A stretch of DNA of 64,000 bases from Pontederia crassipes (taxonomy: Eukaryota; Streptophyta; Magnoliopsida; Commelinales; Pontederiaceae), in the NCBI GenBank assembly GCA_030549335.1, contig CM060198.1, forward strand, positions 55,003,995-55,067,994, given 5' to 3'. Below, in pieces: positions 4,955 to 59,089 of the stretch (positions within the stretch are counted from its first letter, which is position 1; each line of letters starts with the position of its first letter). The notes below the pieces were generated by a model. It was not told the origin of the DNA, ran no database searches, and worked only from the letters and a program-made list of their open reading frames with translations. The translations under genes and the position numbers were made by a program.

Positions 4955-4995
4955 CGTGCACTATGTCTGAAACAAGTCTAAAGAAGGTCCACAAC

Positions 4996-6135
4996 ATGCG
5001 TGCAGCAGACATGAGCAACCTCCTGAGCGTTCTGCTTCTTCTTCTCCTGTGTCACCCACTCTTCTCCAATGGCGAATACAGCGTTCCCAGCAACCCGAGG
5101 CTGGACAAGGCCTACACGGCGCTGCAAGCCTTCAAGCACGCCATCACCTGCGACCCCAAGGGCATAACCCACAACTGGTGCGGCCCTCACGTCTGCAACT
5201 ACACGGGCGTGTTCTGCGCGCCGGCGCCGGACAACCCGCATGAGCTCACCGTGGCCGGCGTGGACCTGAACCACGGACTGCTCTGCGGGACGCTCCCGGA
5301 GGAGCTGAGCCTCCTCTCCGACCTCGCGCTGTTCCATATCAACTCCAACCAGTTCACGGGAGGCATCCCCAAGTCCTTCGGCTGCCTCAAGCAGCTGTAC
5401 GAGCTGGACGTGAGCAACAACCTCCTGGACGGGCCCTTCCCCTCCGTCGTGCTCGAGCCGCCGTCGCTCCGGTACCTCGACATCCGCTACAACCGGTTCT
5501 GCGGCGACGTCCCGAGCGGGGTGTTCGACCTGAAGCTGGACGCCCTCTTCATCAACAACAATCACTTCACGATCAGCCTGCCGGACAACATCGGCAACTC
5601 CCCCGTCTCCGTGCTGGTCATCGCCAACAACCAGATCAACGGGTGCTTCCCCAAGAGCATCTTCAACATGAACAGGACCCTGAACGAGCTCATCATCATG
5701 AACAGCGGCCTCAAGTCGTGCCTGCCCCCGGAGATCGGAAGGCTCAACCAGCTGACGGTGTTCGACGTCAGCTTCAACAAGCTCGTCGGCCACCTCCCGG
5801 AGAGCATCGGGGAGATGAAGAAGCTGGAGCAGCTCAACGTCGCCCACAACAAGCTCTCCGGCGCCATCCCGGAGACCATCTGCGAGCTGCCGCACCTCAA
5901 GAACTTCACCTACTCCTACAACTACTTCTGCACCGAGCCGGAGGTCTGTCTGAAGAAGGTGAAGAAGATCAACGACAAGAAGAACTGCATCCCGTTCCGC
6001 CCGAAGCAGCGGTCACCGGAGCAGTGCCATTCGTTCCTGTCGCAGACGCCCCCCCACTGCGACTGCGACGGGTGCATAGTCCCGACGCCTCCGTCCCCGC
6101 CGCCGCCTTCCCCGCCGCCACCCTATCACTACTGA
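4996..6135 (+). CDS. Leucine-rich-repeat extensin-like cell wall protein, short extensin tail
   Basis: Single-exon gene, 379 aa from the ATG at 4996. An in-frame ATG at 4963 would lie upstream of the expected transcription start. Order of parts: hydrophobic signal peptide (about residues 1-26); cysteine-containing N cap with HNWCGPHVCNYTGVFC, typical of LRX/PEX proteins; about ten plant-type LRRs (for example LYELDVSNNLLDGPFP); a Cys-rich hinge (PEQC, HCDCDGC); and a tail of only two SPPPP-type motifs ending YHY. Family members are secreted and sit in the wall, where the LRR part binds RALF peptides and the Ser-Hyp repeats anchor the protein. Typical LRX/PEX proteins have hundreds of residues of extensin repeats, so this one belongs with, or has become, the short LRX-like type. 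GC-rich third positions contrast with the AT-rich surroundings. Family call secure; exact orthologue not. Confidence 0.9.
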   Translation: MRAADMSNLLSVLLLLLLCHPLFSNGEYSVPSNPRLDKAYTALQAFKHAITCDPKGITHNWCGPHVCNYTGVFCAPAPDNPHELTVAGVDLNHGLLCGTLPEELSLLSDLALFHINSNQFTGGIPKSFGCLKQLYELDVSNNLLDGPFPSVVLEPPSLRYLDIRYNRFCGDVPSGVFDLKLDALFINNNHFTISLPDNIGNSPVSVLVIANNQINGCFPKSIFNMNRTLNELIIMNSGLKSCLPPEIGRLNQLTVFDVSFNKLVGHLPESIGEMKKLEQLNVAHNKLSGAIPETICELPHLKNFTYSYNYFCTEPEVCLKKVKKINDKKNCIPFRPKQRSPEQCHSFLSQTPPHCDCDGCIVPTPPSPPPPSPPPPYHY

Positions 6136-8636: not shown

Positions 8637-11600
8637 CTAGTCATCACTGTCTGCATTCGGCCTCATGCAACCACAAGAAGAAGGCCCTTTCTTCTGCCTC
8701 CTGCTTTCTTTCCTTCCATATATGTACTCCTTCAGAATGGCTCCTGTACTTTGGTCCACAGCTTTGGCTCTGTTACTGGCGCACTCTTCATCGGCTTTCA
8801 GCAAGCTGTACTGAATTTTCTGCATTTCCAGTTCCAACCTTCCAATCTTTTCTGAAACCTTCCTTGCCTGGTCAGTAATTTGCTTCTGGCTTTTACTTGC
8901 GTCACCTTTCTTCTCAATGATCTCATCATCGGGGGATGCAGACAAGTCTTCAACTTTCTTTGTCAGCTTACTGTTGGCATCAATCAGCTTTGAGACGGTT
9001 CCTTCAGCCCCCTTCAGCTGTACCTTGACAGGGTTCAGTTCTGATTTCACAGAGTGGTTGTTCTTTTCAGATGCTTCAACATTCATCTGCAGTTCCTTAA
9101 CACATGCATGAAGAACCAACAGCCTGTGTCCATCAGAAGAAAGCCTCTCGATGACCCTTCTGTTCCATTGCTTCCGGGTTTCATGTTTTCTGGGCAGCAC
9201 TAGTTTATCAACTCCCAGCTCTTTTTCAGTTACCAGTTCAAGCAAAGGGTATCTACCATTCTCCTGTTCTATCTGTAGGGATGTTGCATCATTGTCCGGA
9301 ATTACCAAAGGAGCTTTCAGTTTCTGATCACTGCAGCTTACTTCTGATGTTTGGCATAATTCAGATTCAGACACGTGATCAACAATTTCATCAGCATTCA
9401 TAATATCATATATATCAGAAAGATCTGCATTGCTACACCGCGAAGAGTTCACAACAATGTCAAATTGGAGATCTCTCATGCTTTGTTCACACTTCATATT
9501 TGACAATTCACTTTGTGCCATCCCACTTGATCTTAACCCTGCAATTTCTTTCCATGTGGAGTTTAAGCTAGCAACCGACTCTAACCTATCAAACTCCAAA
9601 AGGTAGCCAGCTTCCATCATCTCCTTCTCAAGTATTTCGATCTTCGATTGCAAATCTTTCCATTTTAGGAGTCCTGGCATTGCTGTGCCACCATGACTTG
9701 AACTTGGTTCTGGAGTGCTCTTGTTGGAAGACTTGAATTGGACATCCTGAATACAACAACTTTGTTGAGCTTACTATTTATCAGGTAACTATATAACTGG
9801 CTTCAGTAAAACAATCAAGTTAACATATTAGTTTTTGAGTTCAATTGCAGATGTACAAAAGTCCATCTACTTGAATTCTAGACCTCAACATGATATTGAC
9901 ATTGAAATATAGCATCTCAATTAAATCTTGATTAAGGAGTTCAGATTTCATTAAAAGTTAAAACAAGAGTTCGCATTTATTATTTCCATCAATGGGAAAA
10001 AAAACTTTTCGTTTCCTTGTTTCTTTAGTGTGATGTCTTGCCTGTGATGTGGAGTACTCTTCCAGAAGAGAGGTATCATCCCACAAAGACCTCACTAGTA
10101 GCAAAAATGCTCTCAACTCGGTCATTAGCCCTCTGTTTTCTCTTTCAAGAGCATCAAGCTTCTTTTCCAGCTCTTCGATGGTGAAGTTTTTTTTTGTGAT
10201 CTCCTCTTGTAGAATTCTCATCTGTACCATTCTACTTGTCTCAAATGCATGGCATGCTTTGATGAGCTCATGCACCTTTACTTTGAACAATTTAGCATTA
10301 ATCATCACAAGCTGGATGTGCAGTGCTGATGAAATTTCCACATCAGAGAACTGCTTATCAGTTTCATTCTGCAGGGCAGAAGTCAAATATCTTTCTCTTA
10401 TTCTGAGCTCCGCAGCTTCTGTTTGAAGACCTTTTATTTCTCCCTTCAGAATCTCATTTTCTTGATGTAGATATCCATCAGTTTCCTTGCAGGAATCATT
10501 CTCAATTTCTTCTGCGGACCCTTTACTTATATGGTCCAGTTTAGGATCACCATGATGTCCGCATAAACCAGTATGGTCATCTTGCACACTTTGCAAAGCT
10601 GAATTTTCTTCAGACAAGTTCATATCTTCCGTGAGAAGAATTTGTGCACCTGTTGGTGACAATTTGGCATTGCTAATATCAATTTGGAATTGCATCAAGC
10701 CTCCATGATTTTCTAGTTTCGGAATTGATTCCTTGATACGGGTGCTTTCTGTGTGCAGCATTACAATATTCTCATTGATAACTTTGATATCCTCCTCAAG
10801 GTCCTTTTGTACCTCATGAAGATAGTTTCTTTCACTGTTTAGAAGTCGTAACTCGGTGCTTTTTTCAGTAATGAAACTTTTCAATACCAGGGCAAGGCAA
10901 TCCAAGGCCACCACATCAGCAATAATGAGGGCATTCTCCATTTCCAGATGTTCATTATTTTCACTCAAGAGGCGAAGCTTTTCAGATATTGAACGATTTT
11001 CCTCAGACATGTTAGATATTACAATCTGCAGTGCGCAATGCGCCTGTTGTAAATCCGATAACTCCCCGAACATAATATCAACTTCAGCCTTCAAAGCTTC
11101 CTCTCTTGTATTGCTAGCTTGCACCTCCCCTCTCAATTGTTCATTCATCTTACGGAGTTCATCATTCTCACACTTTAGCACAGCAAAATTATCAATCTGT
11201 ATGCTAGATTCTCTTTGAAGGGTAGCTTTTTCTGCACGTAATTCTGCCACAAATGCTCCAAACTGCTCTAAAAGTGTAAGTACAATAGACTTCTCAAGAA
11301 GTAAATGCTGTTTCTCATCTTGTGTCTCTGAAGCAGTATGTAGTAGCTGTCTAATCTCATGCAGAATAAGCTGCAAGAGGACTTCATCTTTGATATGATC
11401 TAAAGAAACATTCTCCAGATCAATCTTAAGCAACTTCATTATCAAATGAATCCATTCTTTCAGCTTCTCATTATGCTCCGTTAATGATGTTATTCTTTCT
11501 TCTTGAACATGACATTCCTGTTCAAGATGAGAAATTAGTTTCTCGGTGCATTTTAGTGTGTCTTGATGTTTCTGAGTTCCAGTAGAAAAACTCAAGCTCC

Positions 11601-14447
11601 CTTCTTTTATGTCCCGTAAACATTTCTGCAAGATGAAGATTTCAAACTGAGCATTCATGATATTAAGCTGCTCCACTTCTAGCTCCTCCTGCCTTTGTCG
11701 ACCTTCTACTTGCAGCAGACGAATCTGTTTCACGAGTGCACGCAGTTGAGCATTACTAGACTTAATAAGTGAACTATGTTCTTCCCTTTCCAGTCTCAAT
11801 AACTCCTGAAGCTCTTCCACCTGTTTTAAGGTTGACTCCTTCTCCTTCTCCAGGTGTGTATGCCTTCCTTCTAATGCTACATACCTGCTCTCCAAATTCT
11901 TCAGATTCTGCCTAATGCTTTCTACCTGAAACAACATCAGTTGTGCAGTAAGACAACTTATGCGGGTAACATAAATCTTATAAAATAATTTATGAAACAG
12001 ATTAAATTATCAGGAAAACTTTTTGCTGGATTGAAAATAAAGTTCAAAAGAGAGAGAACTTGCAACATGAATATGCACCTGGGATGTAAGGGTGGCTTTT
12101 TCACAAACAAGGCTAGATTTCTCATCGTAAAGAGACTGACAAGATTGTTCCATGTCTTTCAGCCTTCCCCTCAAACCATCAATTTCAGCATTCATGTCAA
12201 ATAACGAGTTCTCCAAAAACATGTTTTCCCTTGAAACTTTCTCCATGTTCTTAGTGAAAGCTTCCACATGAGACACAAGTACGGCCTTTTCAGCTTGGTT
12301 GATGGCAATCCTCCCATGTAGATGATAACAAGATTCTTCTAATGTCTTTATCCTATCTCGTAATCTTTCAAGCTCATTGTTTGCATTGGAAATGGAAGCT
12401 TCTAAAATAGCATTTTTATCTGAAATGGTCTCCATATGTTTTAGAGTGTGCAGATGAGCTTGCTTTTCATCTTCATGCTTATTAACAGTCTCTTTCAGCT
12501 CAAAATTATCATCTTTCAACTCCTTTACCATAGCTTGAAGGAACTGAATATTCAAATTAACTACCTGTACTTCCTCCATTAATGCAAGGTATCTCTTTTC
12601 CAGATCATTTCTGTCTTCCTTCAGACGATGGAGCTCCCGCTGGAGAGCTGCCTTTTCCTCTCCCCGGTGATTAAGTTGATTATGAAGTTTTTCATTAAAA
12701 CCTCTTAAGGAAATTATCTCATCTTGCAGATTGATTATCTTTAGAGCAGCCAAAAGCCTTTCTTCATTCAATTTGTCATTTTCCTCCCTAATATTTTTCA
12801 ATGCTTCCTCTAAGTTCGCTTTACACAATTGCACATCCCTCATCTTTTCGCCACTACTTTGAATCTCCATCATTAAACGTCTCATTTCTTCTTGGCATTC
12901 AGAAAGTCGCTTCTCAACAGAGTGGCAAGCCAGCTCATCCTTCTTCCTACCTTGGTGTTCATCTTTCAACGACACATTGAGCTGCTCCAACTCTTCTTCT
13001 TTTATCTTCAGCTCTGCCTCTTGACGTCTTATTCTTTGCTTTAACCTGTCCAGTTCAGATATCAAAGCTTGATTGGCCTTCTCTAGTGATAGACTCCGCA
13101 CCTTTGCATGGTTCAAAAGCTTAGCTCCTCTTACCATCTCACTGTTTAGCTTCTTGAGGTCTGCTTGCATGCAAGAGATCTCATTTTCCAGGGAAGCCAC
13201 TCTTGTCTTGGATTCTTCACATTGAGATAAGGCATCAGCTTTCTCAATCTTAATCCTGGAAGACATTTCTTTCAGATGGTTAACTTCGGATTCAGCTTTG
13301 TCAGCTCTTGTCAACTCCAACGTAATTTGGTTCTTAAGGTCCTCATTCTCCATGGACAGGCGGGTAATTTCTTCCTGCAGTAACTTAAATTCTGAACAAT
13401 TCCCTTCTTCCTCTTGAACACTCGAGCTTTTACCTGTAGACATGTGATCCATTTGCTTCATAGTGTTCTCCCCAGATGATGAATCAACTTCTTCGGAATG
13501 TGTTTCATTTACATCATGATCTGATGATGCACGTAAATGCTCATACTGCAGATTATCTGGGGCAAATAGTATGTGAGGCATTCCAAGACAATGTGACTCC
13601 GCGTCAGTTGAAGAACCTGGTGAGGGATCATCCGAGAATTCGAGTGGGATTTCATTAGGAAAAGCTTCTGCCATTTTTCGATGAGCCTGACGAAGTGCCC
13701 CAGTAGCATGATCGTATCTTTCTGCTAATGCACGATATGCTCTATAGAATTCCTCCACCAGTTTCATAAGCTCAGGGCGATTCTTGTAGAACATTTCTGC
13801 TCTTTGTGCGAAGGAATCAGCATCATGTTCTATAAGCTTGATCATTATCTTTATCTTGGCATCAATATCTGTTACACAAGTAATGTAATGAATTAAACAA
13901 AGTAATGCAATTGATAGGAGGAAAATAAACATGATACTGGCAGTATAATATGCTTTCTGCACTTCATTAATCAAAATGTTGGATAATAAAAAGTGGGCAA
14001 GAAACCCCGTAATCAAAACAGGAATCCAAATGATAGTGGCAATATAATTATGTTTCGAGATGCAAATAGTTGCATGATGAGGAATGACACAAAATAGACA
14101 AAATATTTAACCAAAAGATGGCAACATTCAGATTATTTAAGAAGAATGATCAATTAGCAAAATTCTCTTCTATGAAAGTTAAAAATACAGCTCTTGCATC
14201 ATCAAGTGATCAAAAAATATATACAAAATAAAATATTTTAACTCTTGTACAAGATAAAAGGTTTTAACTCTTTTTTTGGTCATACTGTTGCCTGAGAAAG
14301 TCATGCATCATTCATTATCAGAGATAAAACAGAATTGATCTTACCTGCAAGGTTTTCCTGAAGCCATTTTGAGTTCTTAGGACTAATGTGACTATCCCAC
14401 CACCACGAATATAGACGCCTCGATTCAGCATTAGTTGGTGTTGCCAT
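8637..14447 (-). CDS. NET1: NETWORKED 1 (NET1) actin-binding protein
   Basis: Four coding exons: 14447-14345, 13868-12079, 11925-10042, 9746-8637; total 1628 aa, all phases agree. The N-terminal NAB (KIP1-like) domain is split by intron 1: exon 1 gives the Trp triplet [17 protein letters not shown] (W15-W17) and exon 2 continues [13 protein letters not shown] to [13 protein letters not shown]. The rest is long coiled coil. The C-terminus [13 protein letters not shown] matches the conserved NET1 end. NET1 proteins bind F-actin through the NAB domain and decorate actin at the plasma membrane and plasmodesmata. Length fits the NET1A-D class, about 1.7 kb of codons. Intron 3 (10041-9747) appears to use a GC donor (cag|gcaag). 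The 5' leader probably has further exons between 14.5 and 15.9 kb that I cannot place. Confidence 0.93.
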
Positions 14448-36363: not shown

Positions 36364-38338
36364 GATGCTTTTCCTGCCTACGACCTCTGTGCTCTTCCTC
36401 GATGCACATCTGATCATGCAATCATTATATTCACCTCAAGTAGTAAAGCCCCTCAGTCTTGTAGTTTCAAATATGAACATTTTTTTTATTTCATTACCCT
36501 GAGGCTCAAGAGATCGTGAGAAAATATTGGACATTTCCCTTCCCACACTCCTCAATTCTTGTTGCCCCTAAATCTATTCGGCGGGCAACCCAACGCTAGA
36601 ATCGAGACGTCTAAGGTCAGCTTGAGGTTTGTGCTGATGAGGCATTGGCCCGCATCACGCACCTTGAACTAGTAGACTCCCACTCCATACTCATCGTGGA
36701 TGGTCTCGCCGAGCTACGTTCTGCCTATTACTAACACGCCGCCCTTCTTCACCAAATAAGCATTAAATGGTGGAGAAAATTCAGAGTCTCCTCGCTAAAC
36801 CACGGTGATCAAAACACCAAATTCTTCCACCTACAAACTACCATTCACCATAAATATAACCTCATCTAGCGTATTCAACTTGACTCTGGAACCTTCACGG
36901 ACAATGCCACCCTAATCCAACAATAGTTCATCAATCACTATCAAACACTGTGGGAACATTCTTCTCACCCGGACATCCCTGTTGAGTACTGATCTCCTCT
37001 TCCAGCCCTCCACCCCTTGGATGCTGCCTCACTTATTCGTCCTATTACCATTGCGGAAATCCTAGAGGTTGTCTGGAATATGCCGTCGGGGAAGGCTCCC
37101 AGACCAGATGGTTTCACTTCTGAGTTTTATAAGGAGTACTTGAACATCATCGAGCCTAAGATCACTTCATCTATTCTAAGTTTCTTTAATCTCGACATGC
37201 CTTCTGAGTGGAAACTAACTTCCCTCATCTTCATCCATAAAACAAAGTCACCTTCTCTGTTAAAGACTATCGTCCTATCTCCCTTTGCAACACATTATAC
37301 AGAATTGTCTCTAAAATATTAGTTAATCTCTTTCATCCGTCACTCGAAGGGATCATTGATCGGGTGTAATCTACCTTCATCCATGGGAGGAACATTCAAG
37401 ACAATATGCTCATTGCTCAGGAGTTAACCCATTCACTTGACTTAGGACGACAAAAATTCATGCTCATAAAGGTTGACATGGACAAAACTTTTGACCGTAT
37501 CTCCTGGCTCGCGATCACCCGTATTCCTAAGCTTATGAACTACCCACCGTTCTTTATCACTTGGATCGACCTTTGTATCCACCCCCTCTTTATCTTGTGT
37601 CATCAATGGACAATCTTCTCGGTATTTCCAACCCTATAGAGGAATTTGTCATGGAGACCCTCTCTCGTCATATGTCTTTATCATTGTATCACAAGTCTTC
37701 TCAGTCCTAATGAATCAAGCTGTTTCCAAGGTAATATAATTCATTTTCAACTAAACTCTTTCTCAATAAGCCACCTCCTCTATGTCGATGACCTATTCGT
37801 TTGCGTCTGTGCCACTAAGTCCAATTGTTGTTACCTTAAACAGGTCCTCCATATATACAAGTACCTTACTAACCAGAGAATCAATACCCTTAAATCAGCC
37901 ATCTATTTGTCTGAGCTTATGTCCTCTCGCAGCAAACAACAACTCTCATCTTATCTTGACATCTCCTTAGGTACCTACGCTTTCCAATATCTCGGAGCTC
38001 CAATCTCATACAATTTCATTACTTTCAAGGATCAAAAGTTCCTTTTAAATTGTATCTCCCTACGCCTCTCTAGCTGGAGGCACCTCCTGCTTAACCCAGT
38101 CGGGCGCACTACCCTTATAAAATTCACCTTGACATCCATGCCTACTTACAACCTGGTTACAACATACCTCTCAATTGGTACCCTTGCGTCTCTTGAAAAA
38201 CTATCAAGATCATTTCTTTGGGACCCCTTTGGCAATCGCCGAGGATCCCATCTTATTAGGTGGTTGATCATCTTGCTGCCAAAAGATCATGGTGGTTTGA
38301 CAATCGTTGCTCTCTTATCATCCGTTGTATTCTTAGTC
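36364..38338 (+). pseudogene. LINE ORF2 reverse transcriptase domain, broken
   Basis: Fragments in three frames carry reverse transcriptase signatures in order: MPSGKAPRPDGFTSEFYKEY (37.08 kb), KVDMDKTFDRISW (37.47 kb), and HLLYVDDLFV, the YxDD catalytic loop, at about 37.77-37.8 kb. These are followed by FQYLGAPISYN, RTTLIKFTLTSMPTY and HGGLTIVALLSS. Plant L1-type. Numerous stops and frameshifts show it is dead. Similarity ends abruptly near 38338. Confidence 0.85.
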
Positions 38339-38344
38339 TCTTAA

Positions 38345-51920: not shown

Positions 51921-52515
51921 ATGTTTTGAGTGCCTTACTCGGGCGCCACATTCTCGATATGCTGAACAATACCAATTTCCTTTGGGCAAACCTCATATCC
52001 AGCAAATACGGTAATCTCAAACTCTAGGATCTAAACCATACAACTAAAAAGATCTCCCATTCTTGACGTATCGTTCTGGATTCCCTCACTGACCTCCATT
52101 GTGGCTTCTTTAGGACAATCGGCTCTGGTAGGAACACCTCCATTCTTAGGGGCCACTGGAATTTTTATATTCCCCTCATCTCGAAGCCTACATATATAAA
52201 CATGCATTACACCTTGGAGAATCTCAGTGTCTCCTACCTCATCCTGGACAATAACTGGAACCTTCCTATAGTTCACTCCATTTTCTAGAATAATATCAAT
52301 TCTTTAATTGCACGAATTTGCATTCCAATTAATGCCTACGATGACGCGTGGATTTGGGTGATAGATACCCATAGACGAACTAATATGAACTCAGTTTATA
52401 ATTTTATTTATCGCTACTCTTTACCGCTATGTCCTCTTGACGAGAAGCCTTGAAAAGTGTTATGGCAGATTTCAGTGCCCCCCCCCCCCTCAATAAATAA
52501 ATAATACATTTTTCT

Positions 52516-53160
52516 TTGGAAACTCCTTCACATTCATTTACCCACACTAGACTCCATTTTACTCTTTGTCAACAACGTCAATCCAATCTGCCTCATCTAT
52601 GTGGTCTTACTACGAAAACAAATATTCATCTTTTTTTTGTGTGCCTCACGAGGAAACTATGGACAACCATGCAAAACAAGCTTAATATCACCTTTCGCCT
52701 CTCTTCCACATGGCACCTTGGTTCTTGGATCAACGAGGGGAATCACTTGGATAGCTCCTCTAAAAAAATCTTCCTTTCATTATTTGCCCTTATACTTTGG
52801 GAGATATGGAATCTGCGCAATAACATTTATTTTCGTCATAAGCATGTTATAGTGAAGTTCGCTTGCCAGAGAGTCCTGGTCAGTTTTCATGACTATACTG
52901 AGTCCCACGCACCTGAGGCACCTTTTTATCACACTCTTCACCCCCAAGACCCTGCTAGGGTCGAGTGGGAGATCCCGCCCTCATTACTAGGCCATGGCTC
53001 CTATCTGGAGTCATCGGGGATCGGTGGTACGAGCTATTTGCTTAGCACTAACATTGGCGAGTTTCTTTTTGCAGGATCTTCATGGCACCTTTCAAGCCCG
53101 GCGTTAGAATCTGAGGCTCGAAGCTTGCTCTCTAATCTGCGGCGCTGTGCGAGCTAGGGA
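52516..53160 (+). pseudogene. LINE ORF2 zf-RVT to RNase H fragment
   Basis: The longest open stretch of the 3' LINE piece, 213 codons. Its first half resembles the zinc-finger-like zf-RVT region (HLCGLTTKTN, FFVCLTRKLW), and its second half the RNase H region (SYLLSTNIGEFLFAGSSWH). A frame change near 53157 is followed by further RNase H-like sequence until the hAT-like element at 53288. Confidence 0.75.
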
Positions 53161-53287
53161 ATTCAAGGCAACGGTATTTTTTCGAACTCACCGACGCTTA
53201 CCAAAATCATTAATAAACACTCCCATTGTTAGTGGCACTTAAGGGGCATCATTGCTGACATATGACACATCTTGCCTAGACTTGCAC

Positions 53288-54343
53288 TAAGTCTGAGCAC
53301 GATCCGGGTCGACCACTGACCTGGGCAATCGGGAAAAATACTCAACCCGAGTAGGTTCCGAACTCGGTCCGATAATCATAATACCCGAGGGGTTCCGGGC
53401 CAGGACCGAGTTCATAACGTAGAAACTCGACCCGAAACCCCGCTCGGGTAATATTAAAATTATATTTATACCCGAGGCGTTAAGGCATTAAAAGTTAACT
53501 CGTGTCACTGTGCCCTAGCCGCCTTCGCCTGCTCCGCTGCCGCCCTCTCCCCTTCATCCCTCCCTCTTCGTCTTCTCCTCCTTCGACATTCATGGGATCC
53601 GGCGACGGAGGCGGCGACATCCTTCTCCTTCCACTTGTTCCCGACGATCTGTCTCAATGGGATTTGGCAGCGGAGGCGGCAATGGACAAGGGGCAGCCGA
53701 CGACGGAGGCATCTGTCGTGTAATCCACATGCAACCGCCTGCTCTCGAGCCCCCTGAGAAGCCGCTGTCGAGGGATTGCTGCGGCAGTGGGTGCATGTTG
53801 CCAACTCGCCGTCACCATCGGATGACACCCATGCTCTCGTTGGCTCGCCATCATCATCGGCTCTCCCTCTTTCTCTTCTTCTTCTCCCTCTCGATGCCAC
53901 CACCGCGTGTTGCCATTGCTGCTGCCAGCCGTCGTGTTGCCATCACTCTCACCAACAGGTTCTACTTCGATCTCCCTCTCGGCTTTCCCTTTTTTTCTTC
54001 TTCTTCGATTCTCCCTCTCTTCCTCTAACTCTCTATTTAAAACTCCGTTTTGGCGACGGCGGAGGACACGCCATGGGGTCGGCTTTGGTGGGGGCGACAG
54101 AAGGCAGGCAATCGGTGGGGGCGACGATGGAGGAAGCAGCGACGGAGGAGGCGAGCAGGCAATGGAGGTGGAGTCAGGGTCTGACCCAGTTTAAAACATG
54201 GCTTTTTCTCAAAATTTCAAGTTTGACCTAGTCCCGGTCCCGGCGCGGTCGGGAGAGGGTCCGGAAAATTTTTACCTGATATAACTTGGGTCGGTTCCGG
54301 GTCAGGAGAAATCCGGATTCGAACCCGAATTTGTTTAGCCCTA
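53288..54343. mobile_element. Non-autonomous hAT-like element with GC-rich cargo
   Basis: 1056 bp. Starts taagtctgagcacgatccgg and ends cgaatttgtttagcccta, which read as imperfect inverted repeats. Flanked by a perfect 8-base duplication acttgcac (53280-53287 and 54344-54351). Subterminal regions are rich in cccga/tcggg motifs. The middle (about 53.5-54.18 kb) is GC-rich with many ggcgacggagg-type triplet runs, unlike its AT-rich host, and could be captured gene DNA; open frames there match no family I know. It interrupts the LINE RNase H region. Confidence 0.85.
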
Positions 54344-54369
54344 ACTTGCACTAACATCAGTAACTCATT

Positions 54370-54371
<2 letters not shown>

Positions 54372-54406
<35 letters not shown>
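54372..54406. repeat. Poly-C tract
   Basis: 35 consecutive C, 21 bases beyond the right target duplication of the hAT-like element and inside the LINE RNase H region. The length should be treated with caution because such runs are hard to sequence. Confidence 0.95.
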
Positions 54407-54409
<3 letters not shown>

Positions 54410-54845
54410 TCACACAATGAGCTAGCTGATTACTTGGCAAACGTAGGAGGTACAATTTTTTATGACGATTTTTTGGAGGATCGCCGCACTCCGGGTCTCG
54501 ACCCATTTTTTTATGAGAATTCTCTGATTGCTTAATGTATACCTTTTGTTTGAAAAAAGTCTGATTCATCACTGTTTGTTCGATATTTTCATGTTTCCGA
54601 TGGATTGTGGGGTTTGGTCTTTCAAATTGTAGTTTTGACGGATATTATTCTACATTTTGGATTTGCTTTAGTTCTTTTGAGTGAAAGATAATATGATGAA
54701 AATAATTTGCAAGAAAAAGGATATAAAAAAAAAAGTAAAAAACATGACTGATGCAGCATCATCTCTGGAATCAATGCCACAAAAATCTGACACCAACATG
54801 AGAGAGATTACGGAACAGGAGTCAAGTCAAACCCCCTTATTCTCT

Positions 54846-56582
54846 CTAGTTCTTCAAGGACTCGAGGTCCATGGCCAACCTTTCCAAATCGGCACAGGAA
54901 GAGCCCCCATGCTCGGCAGCTCGCTCCGCCATGTCCTTCCACTGCGCAGCTCTCTCTCTCATGTGCTGCCCTCTTCCTCCTCCCATAAGCTCCCTGACCA
55001 GGTCCTTGACTTGTCTTCTGTCCACCTCTTGGTCGATCTCCATGGCGATGCCCCAGTGCTCGCAGGCGTAGTGGCAGTTCGTGTACTGGTCCGCGAACCC
55101 CGGCCAGCAAATCATGGGCACCCCGCTGCACACGCTCTCCAGCATGGAGTTCCAGCCGCCGTGCGTCAGGAACCCGCCGACGGCAGGGTGGGAGAGGACC
55201 TCCCCTTGGTTGCACCAGCTCGCGAAGAAACTCCTCCCGGCCGTCTCCTTGATGAACTCCTCGGGCAGCGCGGCGAGGCCGCCATGGACGAGGTTGGCCC
55301 TGATGATCCAAAGGAAAGGGTGGCCGCTCTCTGCGATGCCCCACGCGAACTCCGTCAACTGCTTCACCGTCAACGTCGCAAGGCTTCCGAAGCTCACGTA
55401 GACCACCGAGGCCGCGTCCTGCGTGTCCAGCCACTCTCCGCAGCCGCGCTTCTCCTCCCAGAGGCTCAGGTGCGTCGAGTTCATGGGATCCTTCTCGATC
55501 TGATTGAGCAGCGAGGCCAGCGGCCCTACCGTGTACATGCGAGGGAAGAAGCGCCTCAGAGAATGCAAGACCTCCCGCTCCATCCCGTCGAATGTGTTCA
55601 GGATCAGACCTGAAGCTCTCATGGCGCATTTCACTTGCTCGATCTCGTCCTTGAGGTACATGTCGTCGCGGTCCGTCGTTCTGATAAAGCTCGAGAGGTC
55701 CTTCAGGCGGATACTTGCCATGCCAGGAATCCAATCAATGGTAGTATCCAAATACCCGTTTTTTAAGCAGCTTTCATCTGTAAAAAAAACAGAAGCAGCG
55801 CGATCACTAAACAATGCAATGGTAACTCTCCATGAACTGTCGACATCTCAGGTAACGTAGTCTGATGTAAACAATGCTAAATCGAACAACTTAGAGCTAT
55901 GGGAGTTTGTGGTAGAGATGCTCTGCTCATTTGGTGATCTATCTGTCAGTATTAGTCTCAACACTCTTCGCATGATTTCTGTGTTGGAACTGGTGGTAGC
56001 AGAGTAGCCATCCGAGATCTCTATATGTCAAGCCATGAAACACAGGAATGGGGTTTGAAACCTGTGCGAATTACCTTTAAGAGGTGTGTACCCTCTTCGT
56101 ATGAGCTCCGGTAGTTGAATGGAGCCGAGAAGACTGCAAGCGCTCGTAGTCCAAAAGGTCAGCAGAGGAACGCTTAGCTTTTCAGCAACGCTTACCACGA
56201 AGGTCATCAGAAAGTTGCCGATGACGCAAGTGATCGGCGGCGCGTCCGAGGAGCTCTTGAGCTCCTGCAGAAACTTGTCGAGGGCGGCCGGACAAGTCTC
56301 TTCCACCGACAGGATCAGCTCCAAGATGTCGAATGGGCTCTCGGGGCCGTGTGGGTACCCGTCGGGGATCGTCTCAAACTTGAAGTGCTTCGCGCCCTGC
56401 AGCGCGTCGCATCCACCGGACTTGAGTATCTTCTGGCTGCTGCTTCTGGTGTTGATGAAGGTAATGTGGAAGCCTCTGTGGTGGAGCAGCTTGGCCAGCT
56501 CGAGCATGGGGTTTATCTGGCCCGTGGTCGGGAAAGGAAAGATGACAGCGTGTGGCTTCATGGCGTGCGAGGAGCTTGCCAT
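54846..56582 (-). CDS. UDP-glycosyltransferase, UGT85-like, catalytic dyad substituted
   Basis: Two exons, 56582-56075 and 55777-54846 (intron phase 1), 479 aa. The start at MASSSHAMKPHAV matches the family. The 44-residue PSPG sugar-donor box is complete at residues 357-400, from WCNQGEVLSHP through HGGWNS to WPGFADQ; G376 and G396 replace the more usual Cys and Phe. Plant UGTs transfer sugar from UDP-sugar to small molecules in the cytosol, using a His that deprotonates the acceptor and an Asp that supports it. Here the usual GHINPM is GQINPM (Gln22) and the usual SDG is GNF (Asn123), so both are missing although the gene is otherwise intact. It may be a non-catalytic or altered-chemistry paralogue. 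Similar to enzymes annotated as 7-deoxyloganetin glucosyltransferase; substrate unknown. Confidence 0.9.
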
Positions 56583-59089
56583 TGCTACTAAGCTTTCAGC
56601 AGTACCTTCAGCTCGTCCATGGCCAATCTTATCCTTGTCGCACGAGAGAGCTGCACAGGGAGTGCTAGTTGCAGCCCCTAGCGAGTCCTGACTCCTGAGG
56701 AGATGAACCATTGATGGGGGTAGCTGTTTTGATTCCATGCACTGAAGAAATATTGGGAACATAATAAATGTGGCAGAAGATAATATAATATAATAAAACT
56801 GGTTCTGTGGCCGAGAGCACACCAGTTCAGCGCAGTGGTTTTGAATTTTTGATCCTGCTCCCTGCACTACGGTTGTCAGGCCTTTGGGGGGCCAGTCAGA
56901 TGCGATGACATGTTCTCTGAATATGAGCAAGAAACTGCAAATGGTGCAGCTCGTAAAGATTCAGAGGCCGAAATCGGCACAACGTTAGAGGGAAACTTTA
57001 ATTCAGCAATGAGAGAGAGAGAGGCCTGCACAAATATGGGTACGACTCAACGAGACCATATGGAAGACCATGGTCTGATTCTCTCAAAAGCTGTGCATGT
57101 TTCTTTTGCTCCAGCATAAAATAAGAAGACCACGAAGGCATAAAGTGCTGAGGACCAAAGTGACCAAGATCCTTACCGAAAAAAAAAAAAGTGACCAAGA
57201 TCATGAGATCGCCCTTCTCGTCCAAGTGCCACTTGCTCTGTGCCTGTACTTGTCTGTTTTGCGAAATTCCTGCACTTCGTATTCCTGCAATCATATACAA
57301 ACCTGTTCAGAACTTTGTCAATGCATTCATAACCAGTTGGTACTAAACGAAATTGTCCCCTATTTTATTGGATTCGAGTTAAATTTGAATAGAATTTATC
57401 GATTTGTTTTTTAGGATCAAATTGATAGGATGTTAATAATTTTGGACACTGATAAATTTAGTAATGACAATCTATATTTGCTTTGATCAAAAGGGAATAA
57501 CTATGAAATAAAATGTTGTTCATTTTTTTATTGTTTCCACATGAGCCTTACTCGTGTCTAAACGTTTGACAGTTTCTGACTAGTCAAGTTTGAGGATGGA
57601 ATTCTAAAAAACACTAATGGTAGTTTCTCAGATTCAATTCAACCCGCTGTTGCATCGAGCATGCAGATAATCTGAAATGTAACTGTGCATTCACGGTAGG
57701 TAAGTGCAGAGTTTCACCAAAACACGAAGAATATTATAGATTTTTCATCAGATTATCTGAACATGAAACTTGCTTTCAGAATAGTCATGATAGCAAACAA
57801 AGAAAAATGTCTTCTTTTTTCCTTCAAGTGCAAGAAAGAACTTTGCTTCGAACCAGCATCCATTACAGGTTCCATTTTGTGAACTTTCGTGTATCTGATT
57901 CTTCCAGGTGAAGTGATTCATAGCCTTCCGGCTTAAGTGTAACTGTGTCAAAAAAAAAAAAAAAGGAAGTGCACTAAAATTCCTAGAACTATCAGTGCCT
58001 TTCAGGATTCTTCATTCTTATCAGAACCAATTACTTATCGCATTGCCTTACTAATAGATAATTTCTGTTTCGAAAAGAAAATGATTATTGTCATGCAATG
58101 TAGAGTCAGGGCCACTTGATTCTGTCTTTCCATCTATCAACTCAATGCAGCACCCACCACCAACCTCAAGGAGTGAGACAGGTGGGTGAGACTTTGACTG
58201 TCCAAATGATAGAAATTGATGCAAGATGCTTGTGCGGCCACTCACTACACAGAACCCAGATGATTCTTCTGGCCTAACTTTGTTTCCCTTTGCAGTTTAT
58301 TATCACAAAGTTCCGCCTAACATTTATTCCTCTGAATAAATGCTTATTCATCCTTTTCTAGTAGATCTAAAAAACAACGTTTTGGTGTTTTTTTTTATCG
58401 AAGAAGTGTGTACAAGTTCTTGTTGTTTCTCACATTCTACCTCCCAACTGTACAAAATTAATACATATAACAACTTAATTATAATTGAAGTTGTAACTTG
58501 CGAGTCCTGAATCCTGTAATGTCACATTAACAAACTCCCAAAAGTTTGAATACCAAAAATCATTCTAGCAAGCGGATAAATTATCTTTAATGCTAGTGGA
58601 TATTCCGAATACTGAAGTTAGAATTGACAGAAACAATATTTTGAGCTCTGAAAATACTATTGAGTTCTCTGGAAGTCTGTACAAATTGATTAGCGAAAAA
58701 TATGTTGATCCAGAAGACAAAGGCACCAAACCAACGCAATGACATTTGTTCAAATTCGCGAAGTTTGACGGCAATTCCAAGTCGATGCATTTTTGCCGCA
58801 TCGTGTCTTTTTTTTTTCTTCCTTCTTTCAAACAATACAACAAAATTCGTCAGTAAAAATGCCATCTTTTTCTCTCTACATTTCTGCTGCCACATCATGC
58901 AATACGCGCTGCTCGTACTCCCTCTCCACTGACACGTAAACTACCGAAGACGTCCGAGGGTTTTTAGATATATTCCCATCAAAACCTCCTCGCTTTCTTC
59001 GACCCCTTTAAATGAGGTGAAGGCCACTGATAGGTTTACAACTCAACCTGCTCTCTTTTCCTTGATCTCTCCTCCGGATTTGGCCCGCC
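56583..59089. other. Intergenic DNA between UGT and HMT genes
   Basis: The two genes are divergent and this 2.5 kb holds both promoters. The UGT frame stays open some way upstream of its ATG but shows no family similarity there. No other exon, RNA gene or transposon was recognised. Confidence 0.55.

Follow-up and report, generated by a model that had tools for sequence, protein, structure and literature searches.

The UGT gene on the minus strand at positions 54846..56582 of the window, by which we mean the whole 64-kb stretch of DNA that was analyzed (C16:55003995-55067994), encodes a protein in which both members of the catalytic His-Asp dyad are replaced, His by Gln and Asp by Asn, and a near-identical copy on a second chromosome carries the same two replacements under purifying selection. 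Our tentative reading is of a functional, constrained UGT85-clade protein from which the base has been removed and in which the UDP-sugar site has been kept, and which may act as a base-free S- or N-glycosyltransferase. The protein probably has a real job, whether this involves unusual chemistry or service as a non-catalytic partner.

Gene structure and the altered catalytic centre

The gene comprises two exons spanning 479 codons. Exon 1 (56075..56582, minus strand) is an open frame of codons 1-169 plus the first base of codon 170 that ends at a GT donor site; it codes for the acceptor-side domain, both dyad positions lying inside it, and has the same structure in the copy on C15. A phase-1 intron of 297 nt with GT..AG ends (55778..56074, minus strand) separates it from exon 2 (54846..55777, minus strand), which is also open, includes the stop codon, codes for the donor-binding domain and matches PF00201. 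There are zero stops in the 479 codons of the spliced frame, and the original prediction was correct in its coordinates, its open frame and its intron phase. The PF00201 match scores 86.6 bits over residues 289-416 against a curated cut-off of 19.5, which places the protein among the plant UGTs (GT1), and alignment to solved UGTs agrees with the earlier description of the 44-residue PSPG box as complete (residues 357-400; 55086..55217, minus strand).

The best relatives with solved structures are UGT85H2 (453.6 bits, 43.6% identity) and UGT85B1 (406.4 bits, 41.7%), the next scoring 288.1 bits. The position of the intron is a trait of UGT85. With UGT85 proteins as its two top solved matches and the phase-1 intron present, the predicted product of the window gene is, judged by its sequence, a UGT85-clade protein. 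In a tree of 20 rows, some on long branches, the window gene and its C15 copy form a pair placed approximately near the UGT85 rows, on a stem of their own of 0.66 changes per site. The chosen start fits UGT85 N-termini, and a longer form may exist: upstream of this ATG another 126 codons of the UGT frame are free of stops (56583-56960), and they include in-frame ATGs at distances of 43, 52 and 60 codons. A single-sequence fold of exon 1 alone gave a mean pLDDT of 38.1, too low for use.

The original prediction had placed Gln22 at the catalytic His and Asn123 at the partner Asp, and alignment confirmed both assignments, since columns 22 and 123 hold His and Asp in all five solved plant UGTs aligned. 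The window protein thus departs from the usual His-Asp pair of plant UGTs. Codon 22 (56517..56519, minus strand) is CAG in the context GGC CAG ATA, codon 123 (56214..56216, minus strand) is AAC in the context GGC AAC TTT, and both codons recur in the C15 copy. Asp123Asn is explicable by one CpG transition from the ancestral codon that we infer. Codon 20 (56523..56525, minus strand) is ACG, giving Thr where the five solved comparators align Gln; in UGT85B1 the aligned residue, Gln21, is described as touching UDP (PMC9545476).

It had been allowed that another His and Asp might sit in the active site; the alignment to solved UGTs appears to rule out any replacement in register, and in the sequence as read the five residues on either side of Asn123 include neither Asp nor Glu, and the ten on either side of Gln22 no further His. 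Base-calling error is very unlikely given the same codons in two copies on different chromosomes, and is also countered by Thr20, whose ACG lies at least two bases away from any Gln codon. Gly376 and Gly396 had been singled out as departures at usually conserved positions and could be taken for further signs of decay; both positions proved variable in the five-comparator panel, where 376 is in turn C, C, A, C and S, and 396 is F, C, R, Q and F, and 376 varies among the paralogues too, many of which carry Ser.

A family search of the genome itself (1.13 Gb, 43 contigs) scored and listed 86 places from 296 candidates, the window gene included, and residues were examined at 53 other loci among these 86 (L001-L047 and L053-L058). 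Position 22, readable at 45 of the 53, is His at 42 and Leu, Pro and Gln at one each: the Leu locus (L015) also has an internal TAA, the Pro (L038) falls where the alignment is broken, and the Gln belongs to L047, the C15 copy. Position 123, readable at 47, is Asp at 41, Thr at five and Asn at L047. Among the 53 of 86 listed loci examined, no readable one besides L047 lacks both dyad residues, and the next-nearest to the window gene, L036, is 51% identical. The five loci with Thr (L019, L022, L023, L027 and L030, on C9 and C10) keep the His, so that the dyad Asp is not universal in this genome; they are possibly of UGT75 type. L017 and L020 each carry a TAG. No other UGT was found within the 64-kb window, no UGT match in its flanks (10 kb to the left and 20 kb to the right; L048-L050), and no relatives in the viral and genome contig sets scanned.

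Conservation and selection

Broken conserved sites are in no general excess in the aligned sequence, and the drastic changes fall in the catalytic centre. In a leave-one-out comparison of six UGTs, 6 of the 59 positions at which the other five all agree are broken in the window protein (Gln20Thr, His22Gln, Asp123Asn, Leu235Met, Gly352Ser and Gly414Ala), and the five comparators, treated in the same way, together break 37 of 302. The probability of finding both dyad positions among six random breaks is 0.009, a post hoc value for a gene chosen for its dyad loss. With 17 non-redundant UGTs (11 of 34 paralogues having been dropped for stops or length) and a 90% criterion, the window protein breaks 4 of 55 positions (7%; Gln20Thr, His22Gln, Leu317Ile and Gly414Ala) and the other 16 break 0% to 18%; position 123 lies outside the conserved list of this panel because two members carry Thr there.

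The UDP site of UGT85B1 is described as comprising W368, C369, Q371, H386, N390, S391, E394, Q411, Q21, E288, N308, S311 and V337 (PMC9545476). Ten of these 13 contacts are identical in the window protein, among them all eight in the PSPG box. Asn308Ser is shared with three other panel members and Val337Ile with UGT85H2, which leaves the change from UGT85B1 Gln21 to Thr20 as the sole peculiar one; on these grounds the donor site seems to have been retained, unlike the base.

A search for the same Gln/Asn pair in orthologues, together with an estimate of dN/dS, had been proposed as a check on the original prediction, and restriction to one accession with relaxed constraint named as a result that would count against it. 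The check was run on the second copy within the same genome, which has the same pair, and relaxed constraint was not seen in the copy pair. The C15 gene, L047 (match C15:4740263-4740661), differs from the window gene over 479 codons by four replacements (91, 155, 231 and 441) and by 12 codons changed synonymously only; codons 20, 22 and 123 are the same in both, and neither has a stop or frameshift. Coding divergence (17 of 1437 sites, 1.2%) is 2.5 to 4.6 times below that of the 0.9 kb upstream (25 of 842 aligned sites, 3.0%) and of the intron (300 nt in L047 vs 297 nt; 16 of 296 aligned sites, 5.4%). dN and dS are 0.0040 and 0.0403 by NG86 and 0.0043 and 0.0473 by YN00, for a dN/dS of about 0.10 (Nd 4.5 of 1118.7 sites vs Sd 12.5 of 318.3; Fisher P = 9e-6), with a codon bootstrap range of 0.018-0.267 and 0 of 2000 values at 1 or above. 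Purifying selection acts between the two copies, a result carried by this one pair.

For comparison, the ratio was also measured for 40 other close pairs of UGT loci in this genome; it ranged over 0.13-1.03, and over 0.13-0.56 for the 17 pairs without stops. Loci recur among the 40 pairs, which are hence non-independent, many consist of a C-terminal piece only where the window pair covers the whole coding sequence, and 23 include a locus with stops in its pieces, real or from intron read-through (the stop codons themselves were skipped), a circumstance that tends to raise the ratio. The dyad-less pair has the lowest ratio measured; with so few replacements it is best described as constrained at least like intact pairs, its rank being unproven. 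The L018/L021 pair on C12 has a ratio of about 1.03 (451 codons, 17 replacements vs 5 synonymous, stops skipped), which could reflect relaxed or diversifying selection.

These values bear on the proposal, which we consider very improbable, that the gene is a pseudogene on its way out or a relaxed paralogue whose dyad was hit by chance. Broken copies are common in UGT families, as the TAA of L015 and the TAGs of L017 and L020 illustrate, the single CpG transition could account for Asn123, and one copy of the two could be relaxed alone. The open frame is also weak evidence by itself, the probability of no stop being 0.55 after 20 neutral substitutions, or 0.15 if 0.1 indels accompany each substitution, and the argument for function therefore rests on dN/dS. 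The bootstrap of that ratio speaks against decay, as do the reduced divergence of the coding sequence, the intact frame of both copies and the number of conserved-site breaks; moreover, the only replacement at a residue common to all 12 outgroup rows, at position 231, falls on the C15 copy and not on the window copy.

An 18.5-kb segment of C15 is collinear, in inverted orientation, with the window at 45.7-63.5 kb, about 16 kb of it being alignable. Other close UGT pairs, with dS of about 0.04-0.10, are similarly distributed over C3/C4, C9/C10, C11/C12 and C13/C14. At 49 Mb, C15 is shorter than C16 (65 Mb). The two genes look like copies, not alleles, on two homoeologous chromosome sets; if so, the base would have been lost before the copies diverged, with constraint on the pair ever since.

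Some 2.6 kb of the window (51926-54557) lack an equivalent at the corresponding position of the C15 region; this segment contains a run of 35 C (54372-54406), and 289 bp separate its end from the UGT stop, downstream of which it lies. Neighbouring genes encode an LRR protein with a proline-rich end (4963-6135; GC3 0.91) and a KIP1/NET-like coiled-coil protein (8637-14016; GC3 about 0.38), GC3 being strongly bimodal between them. A reverse-transcriptase-like frame at 37646-38344, with a weak PF00078 match below cut-off (E 0.054), is probably a remnant of a non-LTR retroelement. Scans for tRNA and Rfam families gave no match.

Candidate functions

Dyad changes in UGTs are known from the laboratory, where they were introduced to switch O- to N- or S-glycosylation. 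In PtUGT1, His26Gln is reported to leave O-transfer absent and N- and S-transfer high, Asp122Asn is described as S-monospecific, transferring to S only, and catalytic proton transfer was computed to be unnecessary for N- and S-transfer (PMC8819650). In UGT72B1, His19Gln reportedly brings kcat down to 1/300 for O-transfer and to 1/2 for N-transfer (reported in PMC8558338). A natural enzyme with Gln22 and Asn123 would combine the two PtUGT1 substitutions, and by this analogy a base-free S- or N-glycosyltransferase is the best reading, ranking ahead of a UDP-sugar-binding pseudoenzyme. Such a protein would still bind UDP-sugar and would no longer have the usual means of deprotonating a hydroxyl acceptor; donor and acceptor would be held in line, and a base-independent nucleophile, such as a thiolate, an amine, a ring nitrogen or another already ionised group, would attack the sugar. 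By our own register, counted from H18 of GbNGT1, we place Glu15-Gln16 of that enzyme at positions 19-20. This loop pair is reported to influence N-glucosylation by GbNGT1 (PMC8558338), and Thr15 of UGT74F2, assigned to the same loop by our register, is reported to help determine the product (PMC5397973). Thr19-Thr20 of the window protein may help to position the acceptor.

As to which acceptor atom would be used, the natural Cys-Asp UGT76C enzymes favour N-transfer, with weak O-activity in UGT76C2 and UGT76C3, and Ala at either dyad residue of these two is reported to lower N-transfer and raise O-transfer (PMC12246196). Together with the behaviour of PtUGT1 Asp122Asn, this would argue against efficient N-transfer by a protein with Asn123. 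A more far-reaching version of the proposal, which we hold with somewhat less confidence, is that a deep, separate UGT85 lineage gave up general-base catalysis permanently, by the very substitutions that confer N- or S-specificity in the laboratory, and that selection keeps a dedicated base-free S- or N-glycosyltransferase of some plant metabolite.

The original prediction had suggested a role other than standard O-glycosylation, such as ligand binding, transport or a different reaction. Its premise of retained function is supported by the second copy and its low dN/dS, and transport gained no support in this analysis; the move away from O-transfer leans on mutants described for UGTs of other kinds (PMC8819650, PMC8558338), and counter-examples exist. 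That the protein is still an O-glycosyltransferase, the role of the His-Asp pair having passed to water, to a different residue or to the acidity of the acceptor itself, seems unlikely to us. One counter-example, for which PMC4188811 cites Noguchi 2007, is a soybean UGT described as lacking the catalytic His. An alternative mechanism has been proposed for it (PMC4188811); UGT76C2 and UGT76C3 are weakly O-active without the His (PMC12246196), and five paralogue loci carry Thr at the Asp position. Against continued O-transfer stand the apparent lack of a substitute acid or His nearby and the reported cost of His-to-Gln, which is all O-transfer in PtUGT1 (PMC8819650) and nearly all in UGT72B1 (PMC8558338).

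A rival to be taken more seriously, if still a doubtful one, is that the protein transfers no sugar and serves instead to bind UDP-sugar, a small molecule or both, or as the partner of an active UGT, its fold and pocket being selected and not its chemistry. The strong constraint between copies would fit this, as would the change of both base residues and of the adjacent UDP contact with fold-level conserved positions kept. UGT74F2 His18Ala (PMC5397973) and the His-to-Ala variants of LbUGT1 and LbUGT3 (PMC11139883) are reported to be inactive, and GAUT7 with GAUT1, where one glycosyltransferase keeps a homologous partner in position, offers a plant precedent from another glycosyltransferase family (PMC11820401). 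The inactive Ala variants and the Thr in place of a UDP-contacting Gln would also tell against a base-free enzyme. However, His-to-Gln in two UGTs is reported to leave substantial N- or S-transfer (PMC8558338, PMC8819650), and among the retained donor contacts are those with UDP itself, for which a pure scaffold would have no use. If the window protein is indeed a base-free glycosyltransferase, a natural, selected protein with both changes would suggest that plants have taken the route found in the laboratory, and could readily serve as the starting point for enzymes that make S- or N-glycosides; as a pseudoenzyme, it would offer a non-catalytic UGT that is tractable to study.

Comparison with known glycosyltransferases

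No natural UGT with both changes appeared in the titles and abstract openings of the open-licence literature searched, and in that literature neither a natural Gln/Asn UGT with measured activity nor a report of the double mutant was found. The PtUGT1 mutants resemble the window protein in carrying the same two substitutions, each singly and in another UGT family, but they are laboratory singles and not a natural double, and were assayed on dichloro-aromatics (PMC8819650). UGT72B1 His19Gln likewise has Gln at the base, with O-transfer nearly lost and N-transfer halved, but is an artificial mutant that retains its Asp (PMC8558338). Arabidopsis UGT76C1-5 provide a natural case of catalytic His loss in functional UGTs, with a preference for N-transfer; they differ in having Cys in place of Gln, in retaining the Asp and in belonging to another family (PMC12246196). 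The soybean isoflavone 7-O-glucosyltransferase is similar in being described as without the catalytic His, and different in being named as an O-glucosyltransferase (PMC4188811). The closest solved relatives, UGT85H2 (PDB 2PQ6) and UGT85B1 (PDB 7ZER), share the PSPG box with the window protein, and UGT85B1 most of its UDP contacts; both have the His-Asp pair and a Gln before Gly-His, whereas the window protein has Gln22, Asn123 and Thr20.
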